In this document: one piece after another, positions 12,773 through 42,833 of the stretch | Position numbering within the stretch: position 1 is the first letter of the stretch | How the letters are laid out: each line of letters opens with the position of its first letter | NCBI GenBank assembly: GCA_011620595.1 | Contig: WOYX01000001.1 | Coordinates: 1-55,239, forward strand | From: Bacteroidales bacterium | GTDB lineage: Bacteria; Bacteroidota; Bacteroidia; Bacteroidales; VadinHA17 | Length of the DNA stretch: 55,239 bases | Reading direction: 5' to 3' | Translations under genes and position numbers: made by a program | The notes under the pieces: model-generated | The model's input: only the letters and a program-made list of their open reading frames with translations | Databases searched by the model: none | Told to the model about the DNA's origin: nothing

Positions 12773-14260
12773 TTACAGTCCTGAGGGACTCCCCACCCGG
12801 ATCATCGCGCACCTGAAACCCAGGTCATCGCGTGATGCCTCCTGGTCAAGATAACGGCGGGTGGAAGGATTGAGCCAGTAGGCCCTGTCTTTCCATGATC
12901 CGCCCTTGATGACCCTGGCCCTGTCATTGATAAGGGTCACATAGTCATTGTCGGTCTCGTTCTGAGAATACATTCTTTCAGTCTGGGGAAGGTCGGCGTT
13001 GCCTGACCATTCGAGGCTGGAGGAGATGCTCGAGATTACGTCACCGTCAAGGTAGTTCCTGTAATCCGACTTCTGGTAGTTATACCTGTCGGCCACATCC
13101 TCGGGCTTGACAGTGTCTATCTGCAGCCGTCCCAGCCTGTCCTTCTCCACCACCATGCCATTGGCATCACGACGCAGGTCGGTGAAGACGTTACCCCTGA
13201 ACGGGTTGAACATATCCACATCCTCAGAGGAGAGCGGACGGTAAACATCCTGCACCCACTCATTCACGTTGCCGGCCATGCAATAGAGGCCGTAATCATT
13301 GGGCCAGTAGGACCTCACATCCACGGTTATGCTACCGCCATCGTTGAGGTTACCGGCCACACCCATCATGTCACCGCGGCCACGGACGAAGTTGGCCATG
13401 AACTCACCCCTGTGCTTGGGTGTGGCGTTGCGCACGTTGTGCCCGTCCCACGGGTAAATGGCTCTCTCGTATATCCTCTCCTCAAAGGTGTTGCCCCTGA
13501 GGCCGTAGGCTGCGAACTCCCACTCGGCCTCCGTCGGCAGACGGTAACGGGGAAGAAGGATACCATCCTCCTGCCGCACGCGCGGGTGAAGCTCATCAAC
13601 CCTCTGTCCCGGCACACCTTCATACTGCCCGGCAAGATATGATTCGGTGTTGAAGTTGTTGGCACCGGACTGCTCAACATTGGCATCCTGCCACTTGCTG
13701 TCAAGGAGTATCTGCTCATTGACCCTGTCGGTACGCCATACGCAGTAGTCGTTGGCCTGAAGCCAGCTTACGCCGACAACCGGGTAGGTATTGTACGAGG
13801 GGTGCCTGAAATAATACTGAACATAAGGCTCATTGAAAGCCAGCGGGCTTCTCCATACCAGCGTATCGGGAAGGGCACGGCGGTGCACCTCGGGATAATC
13901 GCTGTAAACACGCCTCAGCCAGTAGAGATACTCGCGGTAATCGAGGTTGGTAACCTCTGTCTCATCCATATAGAAGGATGACACGGTCACCCTGCGGGGG
14001 TTGTTGTTCCAGTCGAACATCACATCCTGCTCCACACGCCCCATGGTGAAGGTACCGCCTTCAATGAGAACGAGGTTGGGGCCGGTGATCTGCTCCGATG
14101 CTTCCCCGATAGGATAGCCGAGATCATTAACATCACTCGACCTGGGATCACGGTAACTCCATCCGGTGGTAGGAGATACATTATCCTGTTTCCCTCCCTT
14201 GCAGGAAAAGAGAAAGAGTGCAACAACCAAAAAAACCGGTAAAGCTCTGAGTCTATACAT
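12773..14260 (-). CDS. gldJ: T9SS/gliding lipoprotein GldJ (FGE-sulfatase-like fold)
   Basis: A 495-residue lipoprotein: signal peptide with lipobox LFSC (Cys20), then a formylglycine-generating-enzyme-like domain with LIEGGTFTMGRVEQD, FYMDETEVTNLDYREYL, PVVGVSWLQANDYC, RLPTEAEWEFAA, MAGNVNEWVQD and the C-terminal RVIKGGSWKDRA and DLGFRC. GldJ is required for gliding and stabilises the T9SS complex with GldK/GldN; it sits in the outer membrane facing the periplasm. Length and motif order fit GldJ better than GldK or a sulfatase-maturing enzyme, and its location next to porU supports the assignment, since gldJ and porU are adjacent in Flavobacterium johnsoniae. A terminator hairpin follows. 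Confidence 0.88.
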   Translation of the reverse strand: MYRLRALPVFLVVALFLFSCKGGKQDNVSPTTGWSYRDPRSSDVNDLGYPIGEASEQITGPNLVLIEGGTFTMGRVEQDVMFDWNNNPRRVTVSSFYMDETEVTNLDYREYLYWLRRVYSDYPEVHRRALPDTLVWRSPLAFNEPYVQYYFRHPSYNTYPVVGVSWLQANDYCVWRTDRVNEQILLDSKWQDANVEQSGANNFNTESYLAGQYEGVPGQRVDELHPRVRQEDGILLPRYRLPTEAEWEFAAYGLRGNTFEERIYERAIYPWDGHNVRNATPKHRGEFMANFVRGRGDMMGVAGNLNDGGSITVDVRSYWPNDYGLYCMAGNVNEWVQDVYRPLSSEDVDMFNPFRGNVFTDLRRDANGMVVEKDRLGRLQIDTVKPEDVADRYNYQKSDYRNYLDGDVISSISSSLEWSGNADLPQTERMYSQNETDNDYVTLINDRARVIKGGSWKDRAYWLNPSTRRYLDQEASRDDLGFRCAMIRVGSPSGL

Positions 14261-14336: not shown

Positions 14337-15326
14337 CTACAAAAGAGGTAACTTTATTATATGTATTACCCTTCTTTTTTCAACATTATTGAAAGCCAGT
14401 GAGAGCCCTGCCCGGACTATGGCCGTGCCCCCGAAAGTAAAATTATTTCCGGCAATAGCATAACTGTATGATAATATGATCCTTACAGAGCCGGTGCTCC
14501 ATCCCGCAGCCGGTTGAACAGTGGTAAAGCCCCCGTAATACTCTTTTCCTTCAACACTGAATGAGTGCCAGGCAGACAGGCCGAAAAGAAGGTCACCGTA
14601 TCCGGCCTCAGCACCGGCATGAACGGTAAGGTCACTGCCCTGAACCGACAGAGTGACATATGGCCCGACAGTTAGCTTGCTGCTACCGGGATTGAAAGAG
14701 CTTCCTGCCGTTACATTAATCAGCCGCCTGAGCCTGTTGTGAGCCTGCTGATCATCACCCAGCTGAGGCTGGGTAAGATGCATGACCGACACTCCGCCGT
14801 ACCACGGTGCGGTGGCGAATGATACTCCGACGCCAAGGTCAAAGCGGGCAATGTTACCCGGCCCTGTATAGTCTGAAGAGCCGCCGGTGATGCCCCTGAA
14901 GGGATCGATATCTTCCGGCAGTATTATGGATCCGCTGCTGATACCGCGCCATATCAGTGAAGCGGTAAGGCCGGCATTGAAAAAGAGGTCCCTGCCGGCA
15001 CGCAGATGGTACGCATAGGAGGCCCCTGCCCTGTAGTCATTCATCACCTCTCCCGTCATGTCATCACTCATCCAGATACCGGCACCGCCGTGAAGCAAAG
15101 GTATGTAGAAGTCTGCCGAGGCATAGGCGGAACGGAGTCCGAAACCCCCGGCGGGAAGAAAGGAGAAGGCCGACAGATTAATGACGCTGCTGCCTGTGGC
15201 ACCGGCATAGGCAGGATTATACATGAAATGCATGCCTGATACCGATCCGTACCATGTATCCTGACCGTGCACTGCCGCCGGGCAGAGGAGAATAAACACC
15301 AAAATAGTCCTGTATCTGATCCTCAT
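14337..15326 (-). CDS. PorP/SprF family T9SS membrane protein
   Basis: A 329-residue outer-membrane beta-barrel of the PorP/SprF family. A signal peptide (FILLCPAAVHGQ) is followed by the family opening MHFMYNPAYAGATGS, then repeated amphipathic strands and YYGGFTTV. PorP links the T9SS to the PorK/N ring through PorE, while SprF-type members serve single large adhesins. The frame extends to a TTG at 15341, but ATG 15326 gives the normal signal peptide. It is divergent from porU; a minus-strand box TATCTTTG (15405-15398) lies 71 bases upstream. No SprB-like adhesin is adjacent, so PorP-type and SprF-type roles remain open. Confidence 0.85.
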   Translation of the reverse strand: MRIRYRTILVFILLCPAAVHGQDTWYGSVSGMHFMYNPAYAGATGSSVINLSAFSFLPAGGFGLRSAYASADFYIPLLHGGAGIWMSDDMTGEVMNDYRAGASYAYHLRAGRDLFFNAGLTASLIWRGISSGSIILPEDIDPFRGITGGSSDYTGPGNIARFDLGVGVSFATAPWYGGVSVMHLTQPQLGDDQQAHNRLRRLINVTAGSSFNPGSSKLTVGPYVTLSVQGSDLTVHAGAEAGYGDLLFGLSAWHSFSVEGKEYYGGFTTVQPAAGWSTGSVRIILSYSYAIAGNNFTFGGTAIVRAGLSLAFNNVEKRRVIHIIKLPLL

Positions 15327-15397
15327 GGTCCTGTTCCGCAATTATCAACGGGCCGGTGTCATCAATATTTTACCGCCGGCTTGCATCATTCCGGGAG

Positions 15398-15424
15398 CAA
15401 AGATAACCTACTTCACTATCTTTG
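15398..15424. promoter_or_regulatory. Divergent -7 boxes forming a perfect inverted repeat (porP-like/porU)
   Basis: CAAAGATA (15398-15405) and TATCTTTG (15417-15424) are exact reverse complements separated by 11 bases. Read outward, each is a TAnnTTTG box, one toward the porP-like gene and one toward porU. The plus box ends only five bases before the porU ATG, so its transcript would be leaderless or nearly so. Only the minus box has a possible TTG (15430-15428) upstream, at a slightly long 22-base spacing. Confidence 0.5.
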
Positions 15425-15429
15425 CACCA

Positions 15430-18400
15430 ATGAGATTGAAAAGCCTTATCCTGCTGACCTCAATTCTGCTGCCCGGAGTTCATCATGCGGCAGCGGACGG
15501 CTATGCATCGGCGTCAGTGCTTGGCACGGGCCAATGGATTAAGATCGGGGTCACCGAGGCAGGGGTTTACAGGCTCGACTACTCACGCATACGGGCCATG
15601 GGTATCACCAACCCGGGTAACGTTGTCCTCTACGGCAACAACAGGGGCCAGCTCTCATTTTACAACGACGGCACAGCACCCGACGACCTGAGAAAGATAG
15701 CAGTCCATGTTGAGACAGGCATTGACGGCATCTTTAACGAAGGTGATTACCTGCTTTTTTATGCCGAAGGAACACACCGGTGGGTCTTTGACAGATCGGA
15801 GAAGACCTACAGGTTTGTGAGGCACTTCTACTCTGACACTGCCTGGTATTTCATGACCTCACAACCGGGAGGCATGCTTCGGGCTGTTACCGAAACGACT
15901 CCCACAGAGCCCGTAAACAGGTCCTCACAGGCTACGGATGTAACCTATCGCCATGAGATCGAGGCGGTGAACCTCATCAGGTCAGGGAGAGAGTGGTACC
16001 AACAGGTAGTGCAGGGAGCGGAGAATGATGTCGGACCGGAGTTCACAGACCTTTTGCCGGGCGAAAGAGTCAGGTACAGCGTCAGGGTTTTGGGACGGTC
16101 AGACAGCGGCAGCGCCTTCTCCCTGAGACAAGAGTCTCAGGAGCTGAATATGATTGCCGTCACCGCGGTCAATATGACCGATCTGAACGGCATCTTTGCA
16201 TCAGTAGCCACCGTGGCCGACTCATGCCTGCCCGACTCACCGGCCCCGTCATTCAGCCTGACATGGTCCTCCGGCGGCAACCTGGCAGCAACAGGTTACA
16301 TAGATTACGTCGACTTCCAGGCCAGGGCCGGACTGCAATACCGCGCAAGACAACTCTTCATCACTGACACCCGAACGGTGGCGCCAGGCGCGATCACCCG
16401 CTTCACGGTCGGAGGATCCTCCTCCCTGAAAGTGTGGGATGTCACAGACCCCTTCGCCCCCAGGATCATGCAGACCTCACAGGCATCAGGCAGCACACTC
16501 TTCACCGCTGCCACCGACACCCTGCGAAAATTCGTGGCCTTTGAAGCCGGAAGCCTGAAGCAGCCGGTCACTGAGGCAGTTGCGGTGCCGAACCAGAACC
16601 TTCATTCGCTTGCCCCTGCCAACATGATCATCGTTACCCACCCCCTGTTTGAGTCTTATGCAATAAAACTGGCAGAACTGCATATGGCTGATGACGGAAC
16701 AACTTCAATCATTGTCACTCCCGGGCAGATTTACAATGAGTTTTCAGGAGGAATACCCGATGCAGCCGCAATTAGGAATTTCGTGAGGATGATCCGTGAC
16801 AGGGGTGCAGGAACGCCATCACCCCTAAGATACCTGCTGCTCTTCGGTGACGGGTCATACGACAACAGGACAGCTCCGCCCGGCAACACTGCCTTCATAC
16901 CAACATGGCAGTCGGTCAACTCCCATACAGGAGTGCTCTCCTTCACTTCTGACGATTTCTACGGGCTTCTTGACGACGGTGATGGTGAAGCTGAAGGTCT
17001 CCTTGACATCGGCATAGGGAGGCTGCCTGCCTCCGACACCGCCTCGGCGGGGGTGATGGTGAGAAAGATAGCCTCTTACATGAGCAGCGCCGCAATGGGC
17101 TCCTGGCGTAACGTGCTATGTCTCGTGGCTGATGATGAAGACTCCAATCTGCATATGAATGATGCCGAAGGACTGGCCTCCACGGCTGCTGCAGCAGCAC
17201 CTTCGCTCATGACCGAGAAGATTTATCTTGACTCCTACAGGCAGATAACGACGGTGACGGGAAGCTCCTACCCCGATGCGGTCAGGGCTGTCGACGACCG
17301 CATGGCATCAGGCTGTCTGATAATGAACTATGTGGGTCATGGTAATGAGACAGGACTGGCACATGAGAGGGTCATAAGGACAGACAACATCAACTCATGG
17401 GAGAACTTCGGCATGCTGCCGCTCTTCATCACTGCCACCTGTGAGTTCTCAAGGTTTGACGATGTAGATATCAGCCAGGCTACGGGGCTCGTTTCGGCAA
17501 AGACCTCAGCCGGAGAGATGGTGCTGCTCAATCCCCATGGGGGAGGGATAGCGCTTATGAGCACTACACGGGTGGTATATTCGGCTCCCAACTACATCCT
17601 GAACCGCAACATCTACGACTTTGCCTTTGAAACAGCTCCTGACGGCCGTTCCATGAGGCTTGGCGACATCATCAGGCTGGCCAAGGTCAACGCCGGAACC
17701 GGGATGAACAAACGCAACTTCCTGCTTCTCGGCGACCCCGCCCTGAGGCTTGCCTGGCCGATGCAGGGCAGGGTGGTCACCGACAGCATCAACAGCATCT
17801 CCGTTGAATACCCCACAGACACACTGAAGGCGCTCTCGTGTGTTACCGTGAGCGGCCACATGGAAGATAATGAAGGTAATCTGCTGAAAGGCTTTAACGG
17901 CACCGTATGGCCAACCGTTCTCGACAAGAGCAGCTATGTCACAACACTGGCCAATGACGGCGGCACACCCATGACCTACCCCGTTACCGGCAATATTCTT
18001 TTCAGGGGTACGGCCACTGTCACTGAGGGCAGGTTCAGCTTCTCGTTCATGGTTCCTCTCGATATAAATTACTCATATGGCAAGGGGAGCATCATCTATT
18101 ATGCCTGTGACGAAAACAGTGACATCAACGGCAGCTTCAATGAGATCACCGTGGGAGGCTTCTCCGGAATCAACAGCAATGATACCGATGGTCCGGCTGT
18201 CAGGCTCTTTATGAATGACACCCTCTTCAGCGACGGGGGTATTACTGACACCTCTCCCACGCTGCTGGCGCTGCTATCCGATGAATCGGGGATCAACGCC
18301 ACCGGCACCGGCCTAGGGCATGACATCATAGTCTGGCTGGATGATGATATGTCGAATGCAGTGGTGCTCAACAGCCTGTACCGCTCAGACGTCGGAACAC

Positions 18401-18840
18401 ATAATGCCGGCAGCCTCTCCTACCCGATGATCATCACCGACAGGGGGAAGCACACTCTGTCGCTGCGGGCATGGGACAACCTGAATAATCCCACTGTGGC
18501 CACCCTTGAATTTGTGGTTGAGACTGACGGCCTCTTCAGGCTCACCGACCTGTTTGCCTTCCCCAACCCTGCTGCGGCAGACGTCAATTTCACCGCCGGA
18601 CACAACAGGCCCGGGACAGAAATGGATGTGACGATCACAATATTCAACAGCAATGGCAGCAGCGTACGTGTCCTGAAAGAAAAGATATTTACTGCCGGCT
18701 ATGCACTGCCTGACATACCCTGGGACGGCTGTGACGCGAAAGGCAGCAGACTTGCCCGAGGGTTATACCTGTGGAGGGTAGAGGCAGTTACTTCCAAAGG
18801 CGAAAAAAGCAGTGCCACAGGACGCATCATCATTTTGTAA
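15430..18840 (+). CDS. porU: Type IX secretion system sortase PorU
   Basis: A 1136-residue cell-surface cysteine peptidase of the gingipain (C25) family that removes the C-terminal signal of T9SS cargo and attaches cargo to A-LPS. The signal peptide is residues 1-20 (MRLKSLILLTSILLPGV...). The C25 domain spans about 390-760, with catalytic His637 in NYVGHGNE and Cys671 in FITATCEFSRF. Beta-rich domains follow, and the last 90 residues form a CTD-like module (FAFPNP, ending GLYLWRVEA...GRIIIL), which PorU keeps. The frame is open back to 15325, but only ATG 15430 gives a proper signal peptide. porV follows 65 bases later with its own box. Confidence 0.93.
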   Translation: MRLKSLILLTSILLPGVHHAAADGYASASVLGTGQWIKIGVTEAGVYRLDYSRIRAMGITNPGNVVLYGNNRGQLSFYNDGTAPDDLRKIAVHVETGIDGIFNEGDYLLFYAEGTHRWVFDRSEKTYRFVRHFYSDTAWYFMTSQPGGMLRAVTETTPTEPVNRSSQATDVTYRHEIEAVNLIRSGREWYQQVVQGAENDVGPEFTDLLPGERVRYSVRVLGRSDSGSAFSLRQESQELNMIAVTAVNMTDLNGIFASVATVADSCLPDSPAPSFSLTWSSGGNLAATGYIDYVDFQARAGLQYRARQLFITDTRTVAPGAITRFTVGGSSSLKVWDVTDPFAPRIMQTSQASGSTLFTAATDTLRKFVAFEAGSLKQPVTEAVAVPNQNLHSLAPANMIIVTHPLFESYAIKLAELHMADDGTTSIIVTPGQIYNEFSGGIPDAAAIRNFVRMIRDRGAGTPSPLRYLLLFGDGSYDNRTAPPGNTAFIPTWQSVNSHTGVLSFTSDDFYGLLDDGDGEAEGLLDIGIGRLPASDTASAGVMVRKIASYMSSAAMGSWRNVLCLVADDEDSNLHMNDAEGLASTAAAAAPSLMTEKIYLDSYRQITTVTGSSYPDAVRAVDDRMASGCLIMNYVGHGNETGLAHERVIRTDNINSWENFGMLPLFITATCEFSRFDDVDISQATGLVSAKTSAGEMVLLNPHGGGIALMSTTRVVYSAPNYILNRNIYDFAFETAPDGRSMRLGDIIRLAKVNAGTGMNKRNFLLLGDPALRLAWPMQGRVVTDSINSISVEYPTDTLKALSCVTVSGHMEDNEGNLLKGFNGTVWPTVLDKSSYVTTLANDGGTPMTYPVTGNILFRGTATVTEGRFSFSFMVPLDINYSYGKGSIIYYACDENSDINGSFNEITVGGFSGINSNDTDGPAVRLFMNDTLFSDGGITDTSPTLLALLSDESGINATGTGLGHDIIVWLDDDMSNAVVLNSLYRSDVGTHNAGSLSYPMIITDRGKHTLSLRAWDNLNNPTVATLEFVVETDGLFRLTDLFAFPNPAAADVNFTAGHNRPGTEMDVTITIFNSNGSSVRVLKEKIFTAGYALPDIPWDGCDAKGSRLARGLYLWRVEAVTSKGEKSSATGRIIIL

Positions 18841-18905: not shown

Positions 18906-20072
18906 ATGAAAAGCAAGGCGCTGACAATAAGCACACTACTTATTTTGTTTGCATTGAATATACCCGTGGCGGCACAGGAGGATGATCCCTATAATGTCAT
19001 CCAGACGGCAGTCCCGTTTCTTTCCATTGCGCCCGATTCACGTGCCGGAGCACTCGGCGATGCCGGAGTGGCTACCTCTCCGGATATCTTCAGCATGCAC
19101 TGGAACCCCGCCAAATATGCCTTTATTGATGGCAACGGAGGATTTGGAATGTCATACTCACCCTGGCTCAGGGCACTGGTGCCTGACATAAACCTGGCTT
19201 ACCTGACCGGATATTACAGGTTCGACAGCAGACAGGTGCTTGCCGGAAGCCTGATGTATTCATCCCTGGGGGAGATACAGTTCACCGATAACTACGGTGA
19301 GTACCAGAACACTTTCAATCCGAATGAATTTTCCGTTGACCTCGCCTATTCGCGGCTCTTCTCACAGCACTGGTCAGGTGGTGTGGCACTCAGGTTCATC
19401 TATTCAAACATAACTGGCGGTATGCTGGTCGGCGGTACCGAGACAAAGGCAGGCACCGCCTTTGCTGCCGATGCATCGGCATACTACACCGATGATCTTA
19501 AGCTCGGATCCAAAACCGGCAGGATATCGGCAGGCCTTAACCTATCCAACATCGGTTCCAAGATGAGTTACACCTCCGATGTAGATCCCGACTTTATCCC
19601 TGTTAACATGAGGCTCGGGACAACCTTTTCCGTTGATCTTGACAAATACAATATTATATCCGTCTCTTTCGATCTTAACAAACTGCTTGTTCCTACTCCT
19701 CCCACATATGATCCCGAGAGCGGTGAGATCATTGCAGGAAAAGACCCCAATGTCTCAGTCCCGGTAGCCATATTCCAGTCGTTCTACGATGCCCCCGGAG
19801 GGTTCAGTGAGGAGATGAAGGAGTTTACCCAGTCGGTGGGCGTGGAGTACTGGTACAACCAGCAGTTTGCCATCAGGGCCGGTTATTTCAACGAGTCGCA
19901 GATGAAGGGCAACAAGAAGTATTTTACTGTCGGCGCCGGCTTCAGGCTCAGTGTCTTCTCACTCGACTTCTCGTACCTGATGCCCTTCACACAGAATAAC
20001 CCGCTGGCCCGCACCCTCAGGTTCTCCCTCGGTTTTGAGTTTGCCTCACTGCGCAACCTGAGCCAGAAGTAA
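18906..20072 (+). CDS. porV: Type IX secretion system outer-membrane shuttle protein PorV (LptO)
   Basis: A 388-residue FadL-like outer-membrane barrel. The signal peptide ends in IPVAAQ. The mature start (FLSIAPDSRAGALGDAGVAT, then MHWNPAKYAF) is the PorV signature, and the C-terminus ends in barrel strands (ARTLRFSLGFEFASL). PorV collects folded cargo from the SprA/Sov translocon and carries it to PorU, so its position directly after porU is functionally sensible. Length matches the family (about 380-400). ispF follows after four bases, so the last two are probably cotranscribed. Confidence 0.93.
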   Translation: MKSKALTISTLLILFALNIPVAAQEDDPYNVIQTAVPFLSIAPDSRAGALGDAGVATSPDIFSMHWNPAKYAFIDGNGGFGMSYSPWLRALVPDINLAYLTGYYRFDSRQVLAGSLMYSSLGEIQFTDNYGEYQNTFNPNEFSVDLAYSRLFSQHWSGGVALRFIYSNITGGMLVGGTETKAGTAFAADASAYYTDDLKLGSKTGRISAGLNLSNIGSKMSYTSDVDPDFIPVNMRLGTTFSVDLDKYNIISVSFDLNKLLVPTPPTYDPESGEIIAGKDPNVSVPVAIFQSFYDAPGGFSEEMKEFTQSVGVEYWYNQQFAIRAGYFNESQMKGNKKYFTVGAGFRLSVFSLDFSYLMPFTQNNPLARTLRFSLGFEFASLRNLSQK

Positions 20073-32718: not shown

Positions 32719-32726
32719 TATTTTTG
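32719..32726 (+). promoter_or_regulatory. Putative -7 box (TATTTTTG) for recR
   Basis: TATTTTTG matches TAnnTTTG and ends 15 bases before ATG 32742. A TTTG upstream (32699-32702) is at a short 16-base spacing. Confidence 0.45.
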
Positions 32727-32741
32727 CCACAAAGCCTATAT

Positions 32742-33368
32742 ATGTCAGCGAACTTCCCCTCAAAACTGCTGGAAGAGGCTGTGAATGAGTTCGCATCTCT
32801 TCCGGGCATAGGCCGCAAGACAGCCTTCAGGCTTGTCATGCATCTGCTTCGCCGCGACAGCGGAGAGGTGCGCCGTTTCGGAGAGACGGTGATGAAGCTG
32901 CGCGATGAAGTATGTTACTGCAGTGTGTGTCACGGCATCAGTGATACGCCGGTATGCAGTATCTGCAGCTCAGGCTCAAGGGACAGATCGGTAATCTGCG
33001 TGGTCGAAAGCGTGCAGGATGTCATGGCTGTTGAGAACACCAGACAGTACCGGGGGTTGTACCATGTGCTTGGAGGAATCATCTCACCGGTCGACGGCAT
33101 CGGTCCGTCAGATCTCACCATCAACAGTCTGGAGGAGAGGGTGCGCGAAGGCGGAGTGCAGGAGGTCATCCTCGCCCTCAGCACCACCATGGAGGGTGAC
33201 ACTACCAACTTCTATATCAGCAAACGCCTATCGGGCTGCGATCTCCGTCTTACCACCCTGGCCCGCGGAGTGGCTATCGGCGATATACTGGAATATACCG
33301 ATGAGATCACCCTGGGCCAGTCCATCATCAATCGCCAGCCTTTCTCCACACAGCAGGGACGCCAGTGA
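32742..33368 (+). CDS. recR: Recombination mediator protein RecR
   Basis: A 208-residue DNA-repair protein that, with RecF/RecO, loads RecA at gaps. It shows the helix-hairpin-helix [12 protein letters not shown], the C4 zinc finger with cysteines in [20 protein letters not shown], and the Toprim domain ([42 protein letters not shown]). The frame is open to a TTG at 32724, but that codon lies inside the promoter box, so ATG 32742 is the start. Full length. Confidence 0.95.
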
Positions 33369-33463: not shown

Positions 33464-34672
33464 ATGACCTTCGACAGATTTTTTTCGGGTTCATCGCAAA
33501 TGATGAAGAAGTCATCCATCCGTGAAATCCTCAAGCTCACGCAGCAGCCTGAGATGATATCGTTTGCCGGGGGTCTTCCCTCTCCCGACTCATTCCCGAT
33601 AGATGACATAAGGCAGATAGCCTGTGAGGTGCTTGAGGAAGACGGCAAGGCTGCCCTTCAGTACGGCACCACCGAGGGTGACATAAAGCTGCGCACCCTC
33701 CTCGCCAAACGGCACCTGAATGACGGGCTGGACATCTCCCCCGAAAATATCGTCATTACCACCGGCTCGCAACAGGCCCTCGACCTCTGCGGCAAGCTTT
33801 TCATTGACAAGGGGGATGTGGTCATCTGCGGACTCCCCTCCTACCTCGGGGGACTCAATGCCTTCTCAAACTACGGTGCAATCCTTAAAGGCATTCCTCT
33901 TGACAGTGAGGGCATGCACCCCGGGCTGTTGGAAGAGACCATCATAAACCTTAAAAAGGAAGGCAGAATAATCAAGTTCATTTACATAATCCCCGATTTC
34001 CAGAATCCCGCCGGTGTGACTCTGCCCCGTTCACGGCGCCTTGATATAATATCGGTGGCAGAGAGACATGACCTGTTGATCGTGGAAGACAGCCCCTACC
34101 GCGAGGTACGCTTTGAAGGCACTCCCGAGCCACTCATGGCATCACTCGACAGATCCGGCAGGGTGATAACCCTCTTTACCTTCTCAAAGATCCTCGCCCC
34201 GGGATTCAGACTGGCATGGGTCACCGGTCACCCGCAGATCATTGATAAGATCGTTACTGCCAAACAGTCTGCCGACCTCTGCTCTCCACCGCTGATACAA
34301 AAGATTGCAGCACGGTATATTGAAAAGGGACTCCTCGACGTTAACCTGAAGAAGACGGTTGAACTCTACCGACAGCGACGTGATTATATGATCAGCTGCT
34401 TCCGGGAGTTCATGCCGGAGGGTGTGACATGGACCGAGCCCTCGGGCGGAATGTTCCTCTTTGTTACACTGCCTCCGTCAATTGATGCTACGATGCTGCT
34501 CGAAAAGGCCATCATGAAAAAAGTTGCCTTTGTCAGCGGCTCGGCATTCTATTGTAACAGCGAAGGGCATAATACAATGAGAATAAACTTTTCCTTCGCA
34601 GATAAAAATGACACCTGCGAGGGGGTCCGCAGGCTGGCCGCAACCATAAGGGAGGAGATGGACCGGGCCTGA
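33464..34672 (+). CDS. PLP-dependent aminotransferase, 2-aminoadipate/LysN-like
   Basis: A 402-residue fold-type I aminotransferase. Signatures are ISFAGGLPSPDSFP, TTGSQQALDLCGKLF, YIIPDFQNPAGVT, LIVEDSPYREVRF and the PLP-lysine block FTFSKILAPGFRLAWVTG (Lys in FSKIL); the C-terminus ends with SGSAFYCNSEGHNTMRINFS. It lacks the GntR DNA-binding domain of MocR proteins, so it is a free enzyme. Members transaminate 2-aminoadipate, leucine or aromatic amino acids; the exact substrate cannot be read. A glycosyltransferase follows five bases later. Confidence 0.9.
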   Translation: MTFDRFFSGSSQMMKKSSIREILKLTQQPEMISFAGGLPSPDSFPIDDIRQIACEVLEEDGKAALQYGTTEGDIKLRTLLAKRHLNDGLDISPENIVITTGSQQALDLCGKLFIDKGDVVICGLPSYLGGLNAFSNYGAILKGIPLDSEGMHPGLLEETIINLKKEGRIIKFIYIIPDFQNPAGVTLPRSRRLDIISVAERHDLLIVEDSPYREVRFEGTPEPLMASLDRSGRVITLFTFSKILAPGFRLAWVTGHPQIIDKIVTAKQSADLCSPPLIQKIAARYIEKGLLDVNLKKTVELYRQRRDYMISCFREFMPEGVTWTEPSGGMFLFVTLPPSIDATMLLEKAIMKKVAFVSGSAFYCNSEGHNTMRINFSFADKNDTCEGVRRLAATIREEMDRA

Positions 34673-34677
34673 AACCG

Positions 34678-35538
34678 ATGGAGCTCTCGGCAGTTATCGT
34701 CTCCTACAATGTCCGTGATTACCTGAAGCAGGCTCTGTTGTCACTGGTCAGGGCAGCAGAGGGCATTCCTTACGAGATAACCGTTGTTGATAACGCCTCT
34801 TCCGACGGGTCGGCAGAGATGGTGAGGGATGAATTCAGCTACGTCAGACTTATCGTTTCCGTCACCAACGAAGGATATGCGGCGGCATGCAACAGGGGCA
34901 TAAGGGTCTCCTCCGGCGATTTTGTACTGATACTCAATCCCGATACCGTGGTTGCCCCTGACGCTCTGACCCATGCCCTGGCATTCATGCATGGCCACCC
35001 CGATGCCGGTGCCGCCGGGGCCAGGATGACAGACGGCAACGGAAAGTTCCTTCCGGAGTCCAAAAGAGGATTTCCCTCACCGATGACATCTCTCTTCAGG
35101 CTCAGCGGTCTTGGCAGACTCTTCCCGCGTTCTCCGCTCTTCAACGCATACTACCTCGGCCACCTCCCGGAAAAAGAGACATGCAGGGCCGATATCCTAA
35201 CCGGCGCCTTTATGCTTCTGCGCAGAAAGGCTCTTGATGATGCCGGACTCTTTGACACTTCCTTCTTTATGTACGGTGAAGATATCGATTTGAGCTGGCG
35301 CATCAGGAAGGCGGGGTGGTTCAACTACTACCTGCCTGATGTACATATTGTCCATTACAAGGGCAGAAGCCCCTTCGCTGACAGCGAGAGCAGGATAAGA
35401 CACTTCTGCGGAGCCATGAAAATCTTTGCCGTCAAACACCTCGGCCGCGGATGGCACCTGCCTGTCAAAGCTGCCGTGACACTGATTGAAAAATCGAAAA
35501 TAGTGCTGCTGCTCACGACACGGTTGATTAAAAAGTGA
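34678..35538 (+). CDS. Glycosyltransferase family 2
   Basis: A 286-residue GT-A enzyme. Motifs are LSAVIVSYNVRDYL, VVDNASSDGSAEMV, LILNPDTVV (DxD-like), ILTGAFMLLRRKAL and FMYGEDIDLSWRIRKAGW. It resembles O-antigen and rhamnosyl-type transferases and has no clear membrane span. It starts five bases after the aminotransferase gene and is probably co-transcribed, although the two have no obvious biochemical link. The substrate is unknown. Confidence 0.88.
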   Translation: MELSAVIVSYNVRDYLKQALLSLVRAAEGIPYEITVVDNASSDGSAEMVRDEFSYVRLIVSVTNEGYAAACNRGIRVSSGDFVLILNPDTVVAPDALTHALAFMHGHPDAGAAGARMTDGNGKFLPESKRGFPSPMTSLFRLSGLGRLFPRSPLFNAYYLGHLPEKETCRADILTGAFMLLRRKALDDAGLFDTSFFMYGEDIDLSWRIRKAGWFNYYLPDVHIVHYKGRSPFADSESRIRHFCGAMKIFAVKHLGRGWHLPVKAAVTLIEKSKIVLLLTTRLIKK

Positions 35539-35625
35539 CCTCTGTTGTTAAAAAGGAATATATTGGCTCACGGCTGTTTCAATATTTCAATTATATTAGT
35601 CTCTTTAAGAAAACCAATTATCTGA

Positions 35626-37746
35626 ATGAGAAGGGCTAAACATCTCCTCTTCCTTGTATTTATAATGTATGCGGTCTCCATGGCAGGCCAGTCAAGGGGA
35701 GATCTTCGCGAATTGTTTGTCTCCGCCGAAGGAGATATACTGTTTGAGGATTATGCCGAAGCCCTGCCGAAGTATCTGAGCCTCCTGCAGATCTACCCTG
35801 AGAATTACAATCTCTGTTTCAGGATCGGCCAGTGCTATCTCAACACCCCCGGGCAAAAGGAGAAGGCTATTCCCTTCCTTGAGGCCGCATCACGGAATAT
35901 TGACCCGGAATACCGCCGCGGCAAGCTGCGTGAGACGGGAGCCCCCTATGATGTCCTATACTTCCTGGCAAATGCCTATAGAATCAGCAATGACTTTGAC
36001 AGGGCGGTTGAGACCTATGAGCTCTTCCTCAGGGATGTGGATACGGAGATGTATGACACCTCCCTTGTCAGGTTCCAGATAGAGACCTGCCACAACGCCG
36101 AAAAGATGATGCGTAGACCTGCCTATGTAGTGGCGAAGAACCTTGGCAGCACAGTCAACAGCCGGTTTTCTGAAATCAATCCCGTTATATCATCTGATGA
36201 GAAGACCCTCCTCTTCACCCGCGAACTGCCATTCTACGACGCTATCTTCTGGACGGTGAAGGTGAACGGCAACTGGTCTGAGCCGGTCAACCTCACACCT
36301 CAGCTGGGCATCGACCAGGATTACTATACCTCATTCGTCTCGCATGACGGTAAAACGCTTCTGCTCTACAGGACTGACACCTATGACGGGAACATCTACG
36401 AGAGCACACTGAGTGGCGACACCTGGAGCACCGTCAGGAAGCTGAACGGCAATATCAACACAAAATACTGGGAGTCGCATGCCGCCATGTCACAAGACGG
36501 CCGGAGGATTTTCTTCACCAGCAACCGCAGGGAGAGCCTCGGCGGACTTGACATATTCATGGCTGAGCGTGACAGCACGGGCGACTGGGGTACGGCGGTG
36601 AACATCGGGGGTGTCATCAACACTCCTTATAATGAAGAGACCCCGTTCCTCGCCAACAATGACCGCACCCTCTTTTTCAGCTCACGGGGCCACTATAATA
36701 TGGGGGGCTTTGACATCTTCCGCTCCGACCTTGATGAAAACGGCAACTGGGGTAAACCTGTCAATGTCGGCTACCCGGTCAACACTACCGATGATGATCT
36801 CTTCTTCTCACCGGCAAGGGAGGGCAACAGGGGGTATCTCTCACGATTCATTGAGGAAAGCGAGGGTCTTGGGGATATTATAAGCTGCGACATATACTCG
36901 GAACTCAATCCGCGCATCTTCATAATCATGGGAAGAGCAGGCGTCAGGAACCTGCTGGATGAGTTTCCGCAGCCGGTGAAGGTCACTGCCGTAAACACCA
37001 CTGACCTGCAGAAAGTGATAAGCACTCTCACCAACCCACTAACGGGACTGTGGTCGTTCAGGCTCCCGCACGGGTCGTACCGTTTTACCTATGAGTCCGA
37101 TGACGCCATGCCCGTCACCATGGAATATGTGATACCCCCGGGACACCCCGGTGACACCATAAGACTTGAGCCTGTCATCCTCGACGAGACCGACTTTTCA
37201 GCGCAGCTTCTGCTCCCGGGTGACACCCTCATCAATGTCACGGGTGAAGAGCCCGTGGAGATAAGCGTCATGTCCGGGGAGAGGGCCCTGCTTGATATAG
37301 AGGTGCTCTCTCCCGATTCCGTTCTGACATCCGAACGTCAACAGCTGGCTGACTCCGTCTTTACCTACTCTTTCGTGCCGGAGGAGGGCCGGAGCGACGT
37401 CACTTTACGGCTCACTGACCGCTTCGGCAATGAGGCCGGCGCAGCCGTAACCGTGAACCGCAGTGACGCTCCGGAAAGAAGAGAGGTGCCCCTCTATCAT
37501 GAGATACCCGTGTACCCCGCCTCTGAGAAAACGGAACAGGGACAGGAGGATGAGATCGCCACACAAGATGTTTCCACAGGTGATACCCTTACCTGGGGTG
37601 AACAGGAAGCCCTGCCCGTCAGCAATGATGACGACGGGGAAAAGAGAAGGTGTTGTCTCTGGTGGCTGCTGCCGATAACTGCACTTTTTATACTGTTCCT
37701 TATCCTTATAAGACGGAAAAAGAAGAAAAATGACAATGATCAATAG
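35626..37746 (+). CDS. PorE-like TPR/beta-propeller protein with C-terminal membrane anchor (A)
   Basis: A 706-residue exported protein, first of three paralogues. Order: signal peptide (1-21, ending SMAGQ), TPR-like helices (25-165, with FRIGQCYLNTPGQKEKAIPFL), PD40/WD40-like propeller (about 175-415; blades such as IFFTSNRRESLGGLDIF and LFFSSRGHYNMGGFDIF), a carboxypeptidase-regulatory-like beta domain (about 425-510), a further beta region, then a single membrane helix (about 677-695, WWLLPITALFILFLILI) with a KKKK tail. PorE of the T9SS has TPR, propeller, this beta domain and an OmpA peptidoglycan-binding domain; here the OmpA part is replaced by a membrane helix. The function is inferred only from architecture. 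Confidence 0.82.
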   Translation: MRRAKHLLFLVFIMYAVSMAGQSRGDLRELFVSAEGDILFEDYAEALPKYLSLLQIYPENYNLCFRIGQCYLNTPGQKEKAIPFLEAASRNIDPEYRRGKLRETGAPYDVLYFLANAYRISNDFDRAVETYELFLRDVDTEMYDTSLVRFQIETCHNAEKMMRRPAYVVAKNLGSTVNSRFSEINPVISSDEKTLLFTRELPFYDAIFWTVKVNGNWSEPVNLTPQLGIDQDYYTSFVSHDGKTLLLYRTDTYDGNIYESTLSGDTWSTVRKLNGNINTKYWESHAAMSQDGRRIFFTSNRRESLGGLDIFMAERDSTGDWGTAVNIGGVINTPYNEETPFLANNDRTLFFSSRGHYNMGGFDIFRSDLDENGNWGKPVNVGYPVNTTDDDLFFSPAREGNRGYLSRFIEESEGLGDIISCDIYSELNPRIFIIMGRAGVRNLLDEFPQPVKVTAVNTTDLQKVISTLTNPLTGLWSFRLPHGSYRFTYESDDAMPVTMEYVIPPGHPGDTIRLEPVILDETDFSAQLLLPGDTLINVTGEEPVEISVMSGERALLDIEVLSPDSVLTSERQQLADSVFTYSFVPEEGRSDVTLRLTDRFGNEAGAAVTVNRSDAPERREVPLYHEIPVYPASEKTEQGQEDEIATQDVSTGDTLTWGEQEALPVSNDDDGEKRRCCLWWLLPITALFILFLILIRRKKKKNDNDQ

Positions 37747-37754
37747 CGCAATGA

Positions 37755-37810
37755 AACTTACATGAGCAGAAACTCACCAAAGGGAGGGATTAACTAATTT
37801 CATGTAAGTT
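37755..37810. repeat. 11-base inverted repeat between TPR/propeller genes A and B
   Basis: AACTTACATGA (37755-37765) and TCATGTAAGTT (37800-37810) are perfect reverse complements around a 34-base loop, in the 93-base gap between two like-oriented genes. No T-run follows, so it is not a standard terminator; it could be an RNA processing or attenuation structure. Confidence 0.5.
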
Positions 37811-37839
37811 CCATTCGACAAATTAAATAAAATAACCGA

Positions 37840-39120
37840 ATGAAAAGCAAGAGAGTTTTACTTTTTGTGTTGATTCTTTCGGCTGCCTGTTATGCCGGAG
37901 CACAGGACAACATCCGGTTGCAGGAAGCCTTCTACGAAGCTGAATACTTTCTGATGAGAGGAGACTACTCCGATGCACTGCCCTACTATCAGGGTATATA
38001 TGCAGCCATGCCCGATAACGCAAACATTGCATTCCGCATCGGCCTCTGCTATCTCAACATGGAGGGAAGCAAGCACCTGGCGATCGAGTATCTTGAGAAT
38101 GCATCCCAGAAGGTACATGCCAAATACCGTGAGGGATCTCTGCGACAGACTTATGCGCCGTATGAAGCCATCTTCTTCCTGGGAGATGCCTACAAGATTA
38201 ACTATATGTTTGAGAAGGCCAGGGATGCATATCTCAGGTACCGTGAGACACTCCTTCCCGGTGACATTGAAAATATGATGTTCGTTGACCAGCAGATTGC
38301 CACCTGTGCCAACGCTCCCGCCATCATGGCCACACCGGTGCGGTTCACCCTGGAACCCGTTGACAACATGATTAACGACAGCAATGACAACTTCTTTCCC
38401 GTCATATCTGCCGACGGTGAGTCGATGGCATTCATGACCGCCATGAAGTTCTACGATGCGATTATGTTTTCACGGAAAGTCAGGAACGAGTGGACTTCTC
38501 CCGTGAACATCACTCCGGAGCTTCAGTCTGACGGAGATCACTACGTCTCATGTCTCTCTTCCGATGGCACTATGATGCTCCTCTCAAAGGATGACAACAT
38601 CAACAGCGACATATGGATGAGCAGGTACGACGGTGCAAGGTGGGAACCGGCACAGAAACTCAAAAAGGATATCAACACCAAATACTGGGAGGCTCACGGC
38701 TACATCACCGAGGACGGCTCCACACTGATATTCTCGAGTGACAGGCCGGGCGGCTTCGGCGGACTTGACCTGTATGTCTCAAAACTTGACAGTAACGGTG
38801 AATGGGGCACACCGGTAAATATGGGACCGGAGGTCAACACTCCCTTCAATGATGACAGGCCTTTCCTCATCAATGAGGGCAAGATCCTCTTCTTTGCATC
38901 ACAGGGTCACTACAACATGGGAGGCTATGACATCTTCCGCAGTGACCTTCAGTATAACGGCCTGTGGAGCAAACCTGTCAACCTGGGATATCCGCTCAAT
39001 ACTCCCGACGACAACATCTTCTTCTGCCCCACTGACAAAGGCAGGGCAGGCTACATGTCGATGACCGGAAAGGAACCGGGAGCCGGCAAGGCTGATATTT
39101 ACCTCGTCAGGCTTAAATAA
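37840..39120 (+). CDS. PorE-like TPR/beta-propeller protein, short form (B)
   Basis: A 426-residue exported protein: signal peptide (1-21, LILSAACYAGAQ), TPR-like helices (25-160, FRIGLCYLNMEGSKHLAIEYL) and a PD40 propeller (175-425; LIFSSDRPGGFGGLDLYVS, ILFFASQGHYNMGGYDIF). It stops right after the propeller and lacks any anchor, OmpA or SPOR domain. It is clearly paralogous to the genes on either side. It would be a soluble periplasmic member unless held by partners. It may be a T9SS or envelope scaffold component; no direct evidence. Confidence 0.82.
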   Translation: MKSKRVLLFVLILSAACYAGAQDNIRLQEAFYEAEYFLMRGDYSDALPYYQGIYAAMPDNANIAFRIGLCYLNMEGSKHLAIEYLENASQKVHAKYREGSLRQTYAPYEAIFFLGDAYKINYMFEKARDAYLRYRETLLPGDIENMMFVDQQIATCANAPAIMATPVRFTLEPVDNMINDSNDNFFPVISADGESMAFMTAMKFYDAIMFSRKVRNEWTSPVNITPELQSDGDHYVSCLSSDGTMMLLSKDDNINSDIWMSRYDGARWEPAQKLKKDINTKYWEAHGYITEDGSTLIFSSDRPGGFGGLDLYVSKLDSNGEWGTPVNMGPEVNTPFNDDRPFLINEGKILFFASQGHYNMGGYDIFRSDLQYNGLWSKPVNLGYPLNTPDDNIFFCPTDKGRAGYMSMTGKEPGAGKADIYLVRLK

Positions 39121-39178
39121 TACCGGGAAAAAATGCCATTATGCTCCGGAAGAGTTAATTTTATAATCAAATCTTGAC

Positions 39179-40825
39179 ATGGGAAAAAGGGGAATTGCAT
39201 TTTTAACGTTACTGTTGGTTCTGGCGCCGCTGAGTGCACAGAAAAAGAGTGAGATAAAGGAGATCTGGCTTGAGGCGGAATCGCACTACCTCTTCGGCGA
39301 GTTTGAACTGGCCAACCCGCTCTATCTCATACTCAATGAAGTAAACCCCGGAAACGCCAACATAAAATACAAGATCGGCAACTGCTATCTCAACATCTTC
39401 GATGAGAAACCCAAGGCCATACCCTTCCTGGAAGATGCCGTCAGAAACACCAGTTACAACTCCAGGACAGGAAAGCTGAAGGAGACGCAGGCTCCACTTG
39501 ACGCTTACTTCTCCCTTGGAAATGCCTACCGCATCACCAACAGGCTTGACAGCGCCCTGAATACTTACCGTTTCTTCAAACAGCTGGTCTCCGAGACGGG
39601 TGATATGGAGAACCAGGAGTTTATCAACCAGCAGATACAGGCCTGCAATCTTGCCACCGCACAGATGAACAACCCTGTCAGGGTGCTGATACAACCCCTC
39701 AAGGAGTACATTAACCAGGGCTCTGTCAATGAGCGTCCGGTTATCAGCTTCGACGGCAACGTGATGGCTTATACCGAGAGACGCGGGCTCGAGAGCGTGG
39801 TCTATGTGACACGCAGGGAGGGCAGCAGCTGGGGCACACCGAAGGATATTACCCTTGAAGCATCAATGGGAACTGACTGTCATACCACCTCACTCAACGG
39901 CGACGGCACGGAGCTCTACCTCTTCAAGAACGATAACTATGACGGCAATATATATGTCACGACCTTCAGCAACGGCCGCTGGTCTCCCGTCACAAAGCTC
40001 AACCGGAACATCAACACCAGATTTTACGAATCACATGCCACCGTCTCTGCCGATGGAAACAAACTGTGGTTCACCTCAAACCGTGAGGGCAGCCTCGGTG
40101 AACTAGACCTCTGGATGTCGGAGAAGGATGCCACCGGCGAGTGGGGCATACCTGTAAACCTGGGCAGCAGTGTCAATACTCCCTATAACGAGGAGACACC
40201 GTTCATCTCCAAAGACGGGCTGACACTCACCTTCAGCTCTGAAGGGCACGGCTCCATTGGAGGATATGACATCTTCCTGTCTGCAATGTCGGCCGGTGAG
40301 TGGGGTAAACCCGTCAACCTGGGATACCCGGTCAGCACAACCGATGATGATACCGGCTTCCAGCCCTTTGATGACGGAGCCTTCGGACTCCACTCCATTA
40401 TGACCGGCTACAAGAAGAAGGAGATAGCCCTCTTTATGTTCAATCCTCCCGTGGAAGAGAAAGCGGACACTGTTACCATCAGCTTCGACCCCGATGATCT
40501 GCCATATATCTCCCAGGTCGACTCTGCATCACTGATAACCGACCTGCTGCTGAGAGATGTCTCTGACAGCGATGATGAGATAGAACCTGAGGTACTTTAC
40601 TATACCGTACAGGTGATGGCACTCTATAACCCGGTTGACCCGGCCTATTTTGAGTATGCCGATATATCGGTCTTTTACAACAGTGAGGACCGTTTCTACC
40701 GTTATACAACCGGACGCTTCAATACCAAACGTGCAGCCTACGATGAGCTGACAAGACTGCTCAGGCTGGGATATCCCACTGACATATTCGTCAAGAAAGT
40801 CTACAGGAATGATTCTGGAAGGTGA
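39179..40825 (+). CDS. PorE-like TPR/beta-propeller protein with SPOR-like C-terminus (C)
   Basis: A 548-residue exported protein, third paralogue: signal peptide (1-21, LLVLAPLSAQ), TPR-like helices (25-165, YKIGNCYLNIFDEKPKAIPFL), PD40 propeller (about 180-420; LWFTSNREGSLGELDLWMS), an acidic linker, then a C-terminal domain (about 470-545) that opens YYTVQVMALYNP, continues RFYRYTTGRFNTKRAAYDEL and ends LGYPTDIFVKKV, which reads as a SPOR-type fold. SPOR domains bind peptidoglycan glycan strands stripped of stem peptides. Together with protein A this suggests different anchors for the same TPR-propeller body. The 3' end overlaps the GNAT gene by 17 bases. Confidence 0.82.
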   Translation: MGKRGIAFLTLLLVLAPLSAQKKSEIKEIWLEAESHYLFGEFELANPLYLILNEVNPGNANIKYKIGNCYLNIFDEKPKAIPFLEDAVRNTSYNSRTGKLKETQAPLDAYFSLGNAYRITNRLDSALNTYRFFKQLVSETGDMENQEFINQQIQACNLATAQMNNPVRVLIQPLKEYINQGSVNERPVISFDGNVMAYTERRGLESVVYVTRREGSSWGTPKDITLEASMGTDCHTTSLNGDGTELYLFKNDNYDGNIYVTTFSNGRWSPVTKLNRNINTRFYESHATVSADGNKLWFTSNREGSLGELDLWMSEKDATGEWGIPVNLGSSVNTPYNEETPFISKDGLTLTFSSEGHGSIGGYDIFLSAMSAGEWGKPVNLGYPVSTTDDDTGFQPFDDGAFGLHSIMTGYKKKEIALFMFNPPVEEKADTVTISFDPDDLPYISQVDSASLITDLLLRDVSDSDDEIEPEVLYYTVQVMALYNPVDPAYFEYADISVFYNSEDRFYRYTTGRFNTKRAAYDELTRLLRLGYPTDIFVKKVYRNDSGR

Positions 40826-41339
40826 TGGCGTCAGACTGAGGGCTGTTGAACCGGAAGACCTGGAACTGCTTTATAAATGGGAGAATGAGGAATCCGACTG
40901 GAAGCAGAGCAATACTCTTGTTCCCTACTCAAGGTACACCCTGAAGAGGTATATCGCCAGCTCCCACAAAAGCCTCTATGAGACAAGCCAGCTGCGACTT
41001 ATGATTGACCGGACGGCTGACGCCCTTACCGTGGGGACCATTGACCTGTTCGACTTTGATCATTATCATATGCGTGCCGGTGTGGGCATACTGATCGCCG
41101 ATCCCGCAGAACGCAGGAAAGGATATGCTTCAGCAGCACTGGGATGCATAATTGCATATGCTTTTGAAACTATCGGATTGCATCAGCTCTGGTGCAACAT
41201 CCTTGAAGGCAACAGTGACAGCATGAACCTGTTCAGGCGTCACGGCTTTGAACTCTGTGCCACGAAGCGTGAGTGGGTGCGGACACGGGAACGGTTTGTG
41301 ACGGAATACATGCTCCAGCTGATCAATCCCGGGAAATAG
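40809..41339 (+). CDS. GNAT family N-acetyltransferase (RimJ/RimL-like)
   Basis: A 176-residue acetyl-CoA-dependent acetyltransferase: VRLRAVEPEDLELLYKWENE at the start, the beta-bulge VGILIADPAERRKGYASAAL that binds acetyl-CoA, and LWCNILEGNSDSMNLFRRHGF near the end, typical of the RimJ/RimL/SpeG-like group. Substrates range from ribosomal protein N-termini to polyamines, so no specific reaction is assigned. ATG 40809 lies 17 bases inside the upstream gene, so it is probably coupled to the PorE-like triplet. Confidence 0.88.
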   Translation: MILEGDGVRLRAVEPEDLELLYKWENEESDWKQSNTLVPYSRYTLKRYIASSHKSLYETSQLRLMIDRTADALTVGTIDLFDFDHYHMRAGVGILIADPAERRKGYASAALGCIIAYAFETIGLHQLWCNILEGNSDSMNLFRRHGFELCATKREWVRTRERFVTEYMLQLINPGK

Positions 41340-41399
41340 CTCCTGAGTCAGTCCTGTCTGCTCTTACTATACCGATGGCATTATCGCCCGGATGAACCC

Positions 41400-42431: not shown

Positions 42432-42446
42432 TTTTTTATAATATGG

Positions 42447-42818: not shown

Positions 42819-42833
42819 TCTTACCTGTGATCT

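Follow-up and report, generated by a model that had tools for sequence, protein, structure and literature searches.

The window analysed here is a stretch of 55,239 nucleotides (contig WOYX01000001.1 of assembly GCA_011620595.1, positions 1 to 55,239, forward strand) from a Bacteroidales bacterium of the VadinHA17 lineage. It carries three tandem genes, A, B and C, which encode one body, composed of a signal peptide, TPR helices and a PD40 beta-propeller, with three different C-terminal ends. We found one to five such genes at each of 72 other loci, where the kinds of C-terminal tails follow a near-fixed order. The genes and their domains in the window are as follows.

35626..37746, + strand: gene A, 706 amino acids; signal peptide, TPR, propeller, two beta domains, disordered linker, C-terminal membrane helix
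35695..36114, + strand: TPR helices of A, residues 24-163 (AlphaFold, Pfam TPR_19)
36124..36900, + strand: PD40 beta-propeller of A, residues 167-425 (AlphaFold; PD40 E 1.3e-15)
36916..37134, + strand: beta domain of A at the position of the CRD of PorE, residues 431-503 (AlphaFold)
37228..37461, + strand: second beta domain of A, residues 535-612 (AlphaFold secondary structure; immunoglobulin-like (Ig-like) is our descriptive term)
37657..37734, + strand: C-terminal membrane helix of A, residues 678-703, with basic residues after it (AlphaFold, sequence)
37840..39120, + strand: gene B, 426 amino acids; signal peptide, TPR, propeller, no tail
39179..40825, + strand: gene C, 548 amino acids; signal peptide, TPR, propeller, linker, SPOR-like domain
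39683..40441, + strand: PD40 propeller of C, residues 169-421 (AlphaFold; PD40 E 6.4e-19)
40598..40807, + strand: SPOR-like domain of C, residues 474-543 (AlphaFold, Pfam on homologous tails, alignments)

The proteins encoded by A, B and C are paralogues, with pairwise identities of 39.6-43.4% across the body of about 400 amino acids (E 1e-103 to 1e-122). Pfam PD40 matches were obtained in all three (E 6.6e-14 to 6.4e-19), and Pfam TPR models also match all three, with A alone exceeding a family cut-off. For A and C, AlphaFold models were made from alignments of the locus proteins described below, and the domains of B were assigned from its sequence. The model of A (49 alignment rows) has a mean predicted local distance difference test score (pLDDT) of 85.2 and a predicted template modelling score (pTM) of 0.70; the corresponding values for C (29 rows) are 82.1 and 0.74. 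In C, the TPR helices extend up to residue 164 and the propeller up to residue 421, with an uncertain linker at 426-453. The initial annotation had claimed a common body of signal peptide, TPR and PD40 propeller for the three genes, and alignment, Pfam and AlphaFold bear this out (for B, at the sequence level). The different C-termini that it had described are likewise found in the sequences and in the models of A and C: a membrane helix in A, no anchor in B, which terminates 3 residues beyond the common body, and a SPOR-like end in C. When whole chains were compared with the PDB by Foldseek, C gave TolB as its top match (E 2.4e-10, TM-score by target 0.42); the list for A was headed by a YVTN propeller/PKD protein, with TolB entries next. 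With VIA-align, GH62/GH43 propellers ranked top for whole C (Z 19.2), and TolB (1crz) was found at Z 16.9 (root-mean-square deviation 3.6, 217 aligned). Sequence searches of the PDB with the single proteins gave mainly designed TPRs, a few propellers and chance matches. In the models, these structural matches point to the propeller fold and to no specific function.

The arrangement in other genomes was examined by scanning genome contigs with B. The best 80 of 110 stretches correspond to 72 loci, so that more distant arrays are missing from this set; two of the loci (L024 and L067) come from one metagenome-assembled genome (MAG), and the loci are therefore not all separate genomes. According to the record titles, which can be wrong for MAGs, 43 of the 72 loci belong to Bacteroidales and the rest to other Bacteroidota, with one from Chlorobiota. 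Tail types were assigned by our own text patterns and a hydropathy cut, set after the tails had been seen. Open reading frames (ORFs) cut by contig ends were left out of the alignments and trees, and most locus references were aligned without their last residue. The following genes of the window served as flank markers.

32724..33368, + strand: recR, left flank
33464..34672, + strand: pyridoxal phosphate (PLP) aminotransferase, left flank in part of the relatives
34678..35538, + strand: family-2 glycosyltransferase (GT2), left flank
40809..41339, + strand: GNAT acetyltransferase, right flank, overlapping the end of C by 17 bases

Among the 73 loci (window included), one body gene was found in 6, two in 10, three in 34, four in 12 and five in 11, many of the loci being cut by contig ends. 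The left flank (recR, GT2 or the aminotransferase) is present in 54 loci, and the membrane-helix member stands first in 52 of them; the exceptions are L062, where a tail-less member is first and the membrane-helix member second, and L080, which is cut by the contig end. The GNAT gene follows as the right flank in 50 loci; in 25 of these the row of body genes closes with a SPOR-typed member, in 11 with a tail-less one, in 10 with a short-tailed one and in 4 with an untyped one. Both flanks are present in 38 loci (window included), with three genes in 24, four in 10 and five in 4. In all of these 38 loci the membrane-helix type comes first, and the order of membrane helix, OmpA, none or short (a tail of 60-76 residues) and SPOR is unbroken by typed members, an untyped member having been skipped in 4 loci. 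A tail-less or short-tailed member occurs in 37 of the 38, an OmpA-typed one in 22, a SPOR-typed one in 16 and an untyped one in 4; the SPOR member is thus frequent but not universal in the arrays. The genes are closely packed, with a median intergenic gap of 62 bases and 153 of 158 gaps under 300 bases.

The loci nearest to the window have the A, B, C form where they are complete. In many other loci one or two OmpA-tailed members follow the first gene, two members of the L027 array have an OmpA domain, and some arrays end in an OmpA+SPOR protein. Each of 15 loci (L012-L026) has a tail-less B-type gene of 424-465 residues with 54-93% identity to B. The conservation of the gene order outside this genome, which had been predicted for the triplet, is confirmed by the 72 other loci with one to five such genes. 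Of the proposed three-gene cassette, the conserved A/B/C form stands, but as a general description it is too narrow: the triplet is one version of a larger array, to which OmpA-typed members also belong in 22 of the 38 loci with both flanks.

The flanks were also examined in 20 genomes picked for having no strong or tandem body match (two of them, G104 and G131, have separate weaker matches). No array was found in any of the 20 genomes. There, recR lies near GNAT in 9 (L124-L131 and L133; in L131 GT2 is also present) and near GT2, with no recognised GNAT gene, in 4 (L132, L134, L136 and L139), and recR stands alone in 7; L132 and L143 are short stretches. In G104, which is of the same class and another order, a single body gene of 705 residues was found near recR-GT2 (L136, 6527-8641). 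Such a single copy may be ancestral to the array, as judged from this one case.

The C-terminal domain of C consists, in the AlphaFold model, of strands at 474-482, 496-501 and 506-514, a helix at 517-529 and a strand at 537-543. Compared with the SPOR order of beta-alpha-beta-beta-alpha-beta, the strands and the second helix occur in order, and the first helix is down to three residues. The Pfam SPOR model (PF05036) gives the tail of C alone E 0.063 and 14 bits, which does not reach the cut-off of 21 bits, and among 35 homologous tails it matches 32 with E<=1 (the best at 4.2e-9). The last gene of L077 exceeds the cut-off at 21.8 bits, and that of L030, searched as a whole protein, has no SPOR match reaching E 0.001. 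A profile of the tails, when compared with the PDB, matched the solved SPOR domain 1x60 of a sporulation amidase (CwlC) at E 0.01 and FtsN (1uta) weakly at 0.14; a beta domain of NOMO2 outscored 1x60 (0.0005) through the CRD-like part that precedes SPOR in some rows. Among the matches listed for whole chains (Foldseek and VIA on C, Foldseek on A) there were propellers and further proteins of mainly beta structure but no SPOR domain; as those listed for C cover its propeller, this says nothing against SPOR.

The residues that matter on the SPOR sheet include, according to PMC6895207, Q251, S254, W283 and R285 of FtsN and Q270, A273, L307 and R309 of RlpA. In our mapping by spacing and alignment, Q478, A481, F506 and R508 of C correspond to the four FtsN residues; at A481, FtsN has a serine and RlpA likewise an alanine. 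In alignment A1, which comprises the 29 complete SPOR-typed proteins, these glycan-contact positions hold Q in 29, A in 29, R in 29, and F in 26 with Y in the other 3. In alignment A2, to which 6 of the 7 complete untyped tails were added (that of L033, a cut OmpA, was omitted; 35 rows), Q and A are invariant and R reaches at least 90%. In comparison with the SPOR proteins FtsN, DamX, RlpA and CwlC, the tail of C has its strands and second helix in a similar order and the same kind of glycan-contact residues, but differs in the nearly absent first helix, in its fusion to a TPR-propeller body and in the sub-cut-off Pfam score of the tail alone. We take the end of C to be a SPOR domain with a reduced first helix, for which glycan binding is predicted. 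The SPOR-like fold claimed earlier for residues 470-545 was placed in the right range, as indicated by the AlphaFold domain at 474-543 and by the PF05036 matches of the homologous tails. SPOR domains are described as binding denuded glycan, which points to the septum (PMC6895207). The arrays that end in a protein with OmpA and SPOR-like domains include L023 (13261-15771) and L077 (12965-15469), where this protein is encoded by the last gene after a SPOR-only member. Visual inspection of the alignment suggests at least two SPOR-like repeats in each of the tails of L054 10331-11290 and L083 5401-7092.

In A, the domain at the CRD position is followed by the second beta domain and by a low-confidence stretch (AlphaFold, residues 616-677) before the helix. 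The Pfam CarboxypepD_reg model was found in 7 of the 49 A-type proteins scanned, A itself not being among them; B stops short of the CRD position, and C has a low-confidence linker there. These 49 proteins form alignment A3, taken from 59 complete membrane-helix proteins with the omission of L036, L049, L060, L062, L063, L070, L072, L073, L074 and L079. The orientation of a membrane helix generally obeys the positive-inside rule. Lysine and arginine are commoner after the helix than before it in 56 of the 59 proteins (mean 5.5 in the ten residues after it), and because of this excess A most probably sits in the inner membrane, its body projecting into the periplasm. No known C-terminal sorting signal was detected in A by NCBIfam at E<=0.1; a cysteine ahead of the helix was seen by eye in the nearer relatives of the window, and the helix was treated as an ordinary anchor. 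The first genes of the arrays vary from 597 to 1369 residues among the 59 complete members, mostly between the body and the membrane helix. As for the leaders, glutamine occupies the aligned place after the leader in all 29 C-type rows and in 48 of 49 A-type rows. This is consistent with the Q-rule described for substrates of signal peptidase I in Bacteroidetes (PMC5837995), cleavage being presumed. Lipoprotein sorting as in Porphyromonas gingivalis PorE was rejected for the array, a lipobox pattern being present in just 6 of 214 complete array proteins. The PorE of the window's own genome (L160) also has no lipobox pattern, although that of P. gingivalis is a lipoprotein; the lipoprotein leader is thus not universal.

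A tree of the bodies, with the tails excluded, was built from 112 array bodies of 32 of the 73 loci and 6 others over 400 columns (LG+G4 with no mixture model and a short search). All 28 membrane-helix members fall on the same side of one branch, whose support is 97 in the Shimodaira-Hasegawa-like approximate likelihood ratio test (SH-aLRT). The eight tail labels together need 15 changes, as compared with 71.8 in shuffles (none of 200 as low); OmpA needs 4, none 3 and SPOR at least 3. Because the body tree sorts largely by tail type, it appears that most tails have stayed with their bodies since before the lineages split. The two kinds of OmpA+SPOR protein are placed separately. B groups with OmpA-type members and not with the other tail-less genes, so that it may have descended from an OmpA-tailed paralogue; the grouping with tail-less genes was not rejected (approximately unbiased (AU) test, p 0.128; one L065 gene had been put in the group of B, which does not affect the result, as both groups were held together). 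Five paralogues of the window's genome (PorE, another OmpA-ended protein and three beside PorP) fall outside the array (support 98), on long branches.

The family to which the body belongs was examined with the NCBIfam models. The best model is CHU_0125_OmpA (NF053607; 137.8, 145.1 and 134.7 bits for A, B and C; cut-off 620), followed by T9SS_PorE (NF052230; 116.5, 139.2 and 102.9 bits; cut-off 600); neither cut-off is reached, and the best stretches to both models lie within the first 420 or so profile positions. No OmpA match was found in A, B or C at Pfam E<=0.1, and the TolB model (TIGR02800) gives 14-21 bits against a cut-off of 343. A canonical PorE with TPR-type, PD40, CRD and OmpA domains exists elsewhere in the genome (G000:C43, L160 1195-3168; 694 bits), and the idea that the array is the genome's missing PorE was rejected for this reason. 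Because they score below the PorE cut-off and have no OmpA domain, and because a full-length PorE exists elsewhere, A-C are, as classified by these models, PorE-superfamily paralogues and not PorE. The likeness to PorE proposed earlier holds for the body of signal peptide, TPR and PD40 propeller, which in A is followed by a beta domain; it does not extend to the OmpA domain, the lipobox or the model cut-off. The same TPR + PD40 body is also seen in CHU_0125, the OmpA end of which is absent from A, B and C. Tol-Pal is resembled in the TolB-like propeller of A and C and in the OmpA/Pal-type domain of array relatives, but here these parts occur in one polypeptide family, and the TolB model is not satisfied.

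In published work, PorE interacts with PorP and has a fragment of peptidoglycan bound at its OmpA end (PMC9143113, PMC7192894). Flavobacterium johnsoniae has a PorE-like/PorP/type B arrangement (PMC9143113, PMC12618676), in which the same PorE-like body is the anchor. Heath et al. report 424 proteins with a domain order similar to that of PG1058, homologues being kept only with all four domains, and 2-13 homologues in some species (PMC5053529); their filter would omit types A, B and C. Trinh et al. report 14 PorE homologues in Tannerella forsythia (PMC7192894). Our literature search, with subscription papers and preprints largely outside its scope, found no paper on SPOR or PD40 variants of the PorE body and none linking cell division and PorE-type scaffolds.

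Beyond the array, a search of the window's own genome with B gave body-like matches on C22, C62, C43, C58 and C11 and at two weaker places. The body genes on C62, C58 and C11 adjoin PorP-family genes, and those on C62 and C58 are also beside ORFs of 1647 and 1269 residues. The PorE-like proteins of L159 3068-5200 and L161 4620-6092, encoded beside PorP-family genes and very large ORFs, have PKD domains, and that of L161 has no OmpA match. On C11, a PorE-like protein of 492 residues (L162 3824-5299) is encoded beside a PorP-like gene; its C-terminus is SPOR-like by eye, with no Pfam match at 0.001, and may represent anchor swapping outside the array too.

Components of type IX secretion are encoded some 16-23 kb upstream of the array.

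12773..14260, - strand: GldJ-like (437 bits; model cut-off 458)
14337..15341, - strand: PorP/SprF-family protein
15325..18840, + strand: PorU, type IX sortase
18906..20072, + strand: PorV

The genome also has SprA and nine PorP-family matches, eight of them over the cut-off. PorU was found on the contig of the array and on its strand in 11 of 21 genomes, at 17.5-36.6 kb from 5' end to 5' end, a pattern that may be ordinary gene-order conservation. Co-occurrence was examined in a sample of the order (294 genomes, the window's included), where a body match was defined by E<=1e-70 and is not the same as an array. Such a match was found in 89 genomes and SprA in 275, and all 89 body-positive genomes have SprA or PorU. 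Among the 19 genomes without SprA, only G451 has a body match, and it has PorU, as do G543 and G564; none of the 16 genomes without both markers has a body match (P 0.003). We regard this co-occurrence as weak evidence. SprA was also found in 59 of 60 relatives, and in a phylum sample (296 genomes, the window's counted) the body was found at E<=1e-45 in 11 and SprA in 228. One genome of the same genus (G017) is without both a strong body match (best 1.9e-32) and PorU; its assembly is 89% complete, and the double absence may be one missing stretch.

From these results, we propose that A, B and C are old PorE-superfamily paralogues that place one protein-binding body at different sites of the envelope, probably serving type IX or outer-membrane complexes, a reading to which we give an even chance. 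The body, made of TPR and a TolB/PorE-type propeller, would most likely bind one partner common to all members. By analogy with PorE, this partner might be a PorP/SprF-class barrel of the outer membrane, or else some other complex of type IX secretion or of the outer membrane. A would be anchored in the inner membrane, a spacer carrying its body into the periplasm, B would be soluble and could bridge or compete, and C would bind peptide-free glycan strands and hence be mainly at the division site; in other lineages, the OmpA-tailed members would add peptidoglycan attachment. The set would thereby span or position the partner complex across the envelope and along the cell cycle. A type IX/PorP partner is favoured by the genomic context, and an outer-membrane integrity complex (CHU_0125, Tol-Pal) by the best family score and the SPOR domain. 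We are more doubtful of the stronger form of this proposal, a dedicated trans-envelope machine. In it, copies of a scaffold duplicated before the lineages split would be bound to the inner membrane (A), unattached (B), bound to stem-peptide peptidoglycan (the OmpA members found in other lineages) and bound to denuded glycan of the septum (C). They would couple an outer-membrane or type IX complex to division and the inner membrane as a combined Tol-Pal-like and PorE-like system.

Several observations weigh against the main proposal. Besides the low Pfam score of the tail of C, the partial locus L062 is a true departure from the order, the only locus with typed members breaking it; L083 has a body gene beyond GNAT; and the SPOR-labelled bodies do not form a single group, L042, L046 and L050 having end genes that lie apart from the C group. 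As for the partner, neither window 28001-47000 nor the available flanks of the 72 loci gave a PorP-like match to a hidden Markov model built from four PorP-family proteins of this genome, and a PorP partner beside the array was rejected on this ground; this differs from the PorE-like genes that lie beside PorP in this genome and in F. johnsoniae (PMC9143113, PMC12618676). PorU lies about 1 Mb from the array in G024, was absent from the upstream sequence available for G031 (50 kb) and G033 (33 kb), and is left undecided by contig ends in seven genomes. Finally, type IX secretion is near-universal in the order sample, and the 16 marker-less genomes represent only 6 family codes.

The paralogues might instead constitute an envelope-integrity and constriction system like Tol-Pal plus CpoB, independent of type IX secretion, in which the paralogues share out a TolB-like propeller, TPR, Pal-like OmpA tails and targeting by SPOR. 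This would suit the Foldseek ranking of TolB (first for C and near the top for A), the best-scoring family, since CHU_0125 is reported to be needed for outer-membrane integrity in Cytophaga hutchinsonii (PMC5891637), and the septum indicated by SPOR (PMC6895207). We consider it unlikely, though worth retaining: the TolB model is missed by far, the propeller fold is common, with GH62/GH43 enzymes leading the VIA list, and envelope integrity is described as normal in the pg1058 (porE) mutant (PMC5053529). Moreover, 205 of the 294 order genomes have no body match, so that it is no general division system. Another explanation is that of classical PorE-type anchors, each paralogue having its own PorP/SprF barrel and type B adhesin, as a mere family expansion with no joint function. 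The PorE-PorP-PG1035 (type B) complex described in P. gingivalis (PMC9143113) is a precedent, and the same genome has the PorE-like genes that adjoin PorP-family genes, two of them also adjoining very large ORFs. The array flanks, however, have no PorP-like gene, the tail types and their order are kept in 38 of 38 loci with both flanks, which is unexpected for free expansion, and the body tree places the PorP-linked paralogues outside the array, albeit on long branches; we therefore judge this explanation improbable. That the array is a chance mixture of housekeeping-cluster neighbours with decayed tails, B being a broken, functionless OmpA-type gene, is hardly credible: recR occurs together with GNAT or GT2 without a body gene in 12 of the 20 array-free genomes and B may derive from an OmpA-tailed paralogue, but the tail-less B-type gene is kept in all 15 loci L012-L026, and a tail-less or short-tailed member in nearly all loci with both flanks.

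PorE is described as connecting type IX secretion with peptidoglycan (PMC7192894, PMC9143113). The array is a conserved relative of the PorE/CHU_0125 kind, and it suggests a multi-anchored envelope system related to this part of the secretion machine. An ordered array in which one body is combined with a membrane helix, OmpA, nothing or SPOR suggests that the place of anchoring is a selected variable, and the SPOR domain, by pointing to septal peptidoglycan, suggests a link of cell division to PorE-type scaffolds. The tail type and the order can serve as markers for annotating such TPR/PD40 genes, and the array makes the partner and the place of binding of the PorE body directly testable.

Two minor features of the window were also noted. 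A scan gave 16 promoter-like sites against 7.9 expected (standard deviation 2.4) and terminators at the chance level; it was not used for any reading. In window 46000-54000, where genes for a phosphatase, a TonB-dependent receptor, a short MscS-type channel ORF and a multicopper oxidase are located, the G+C content drops from about 0.52 to 0.40-0.44.

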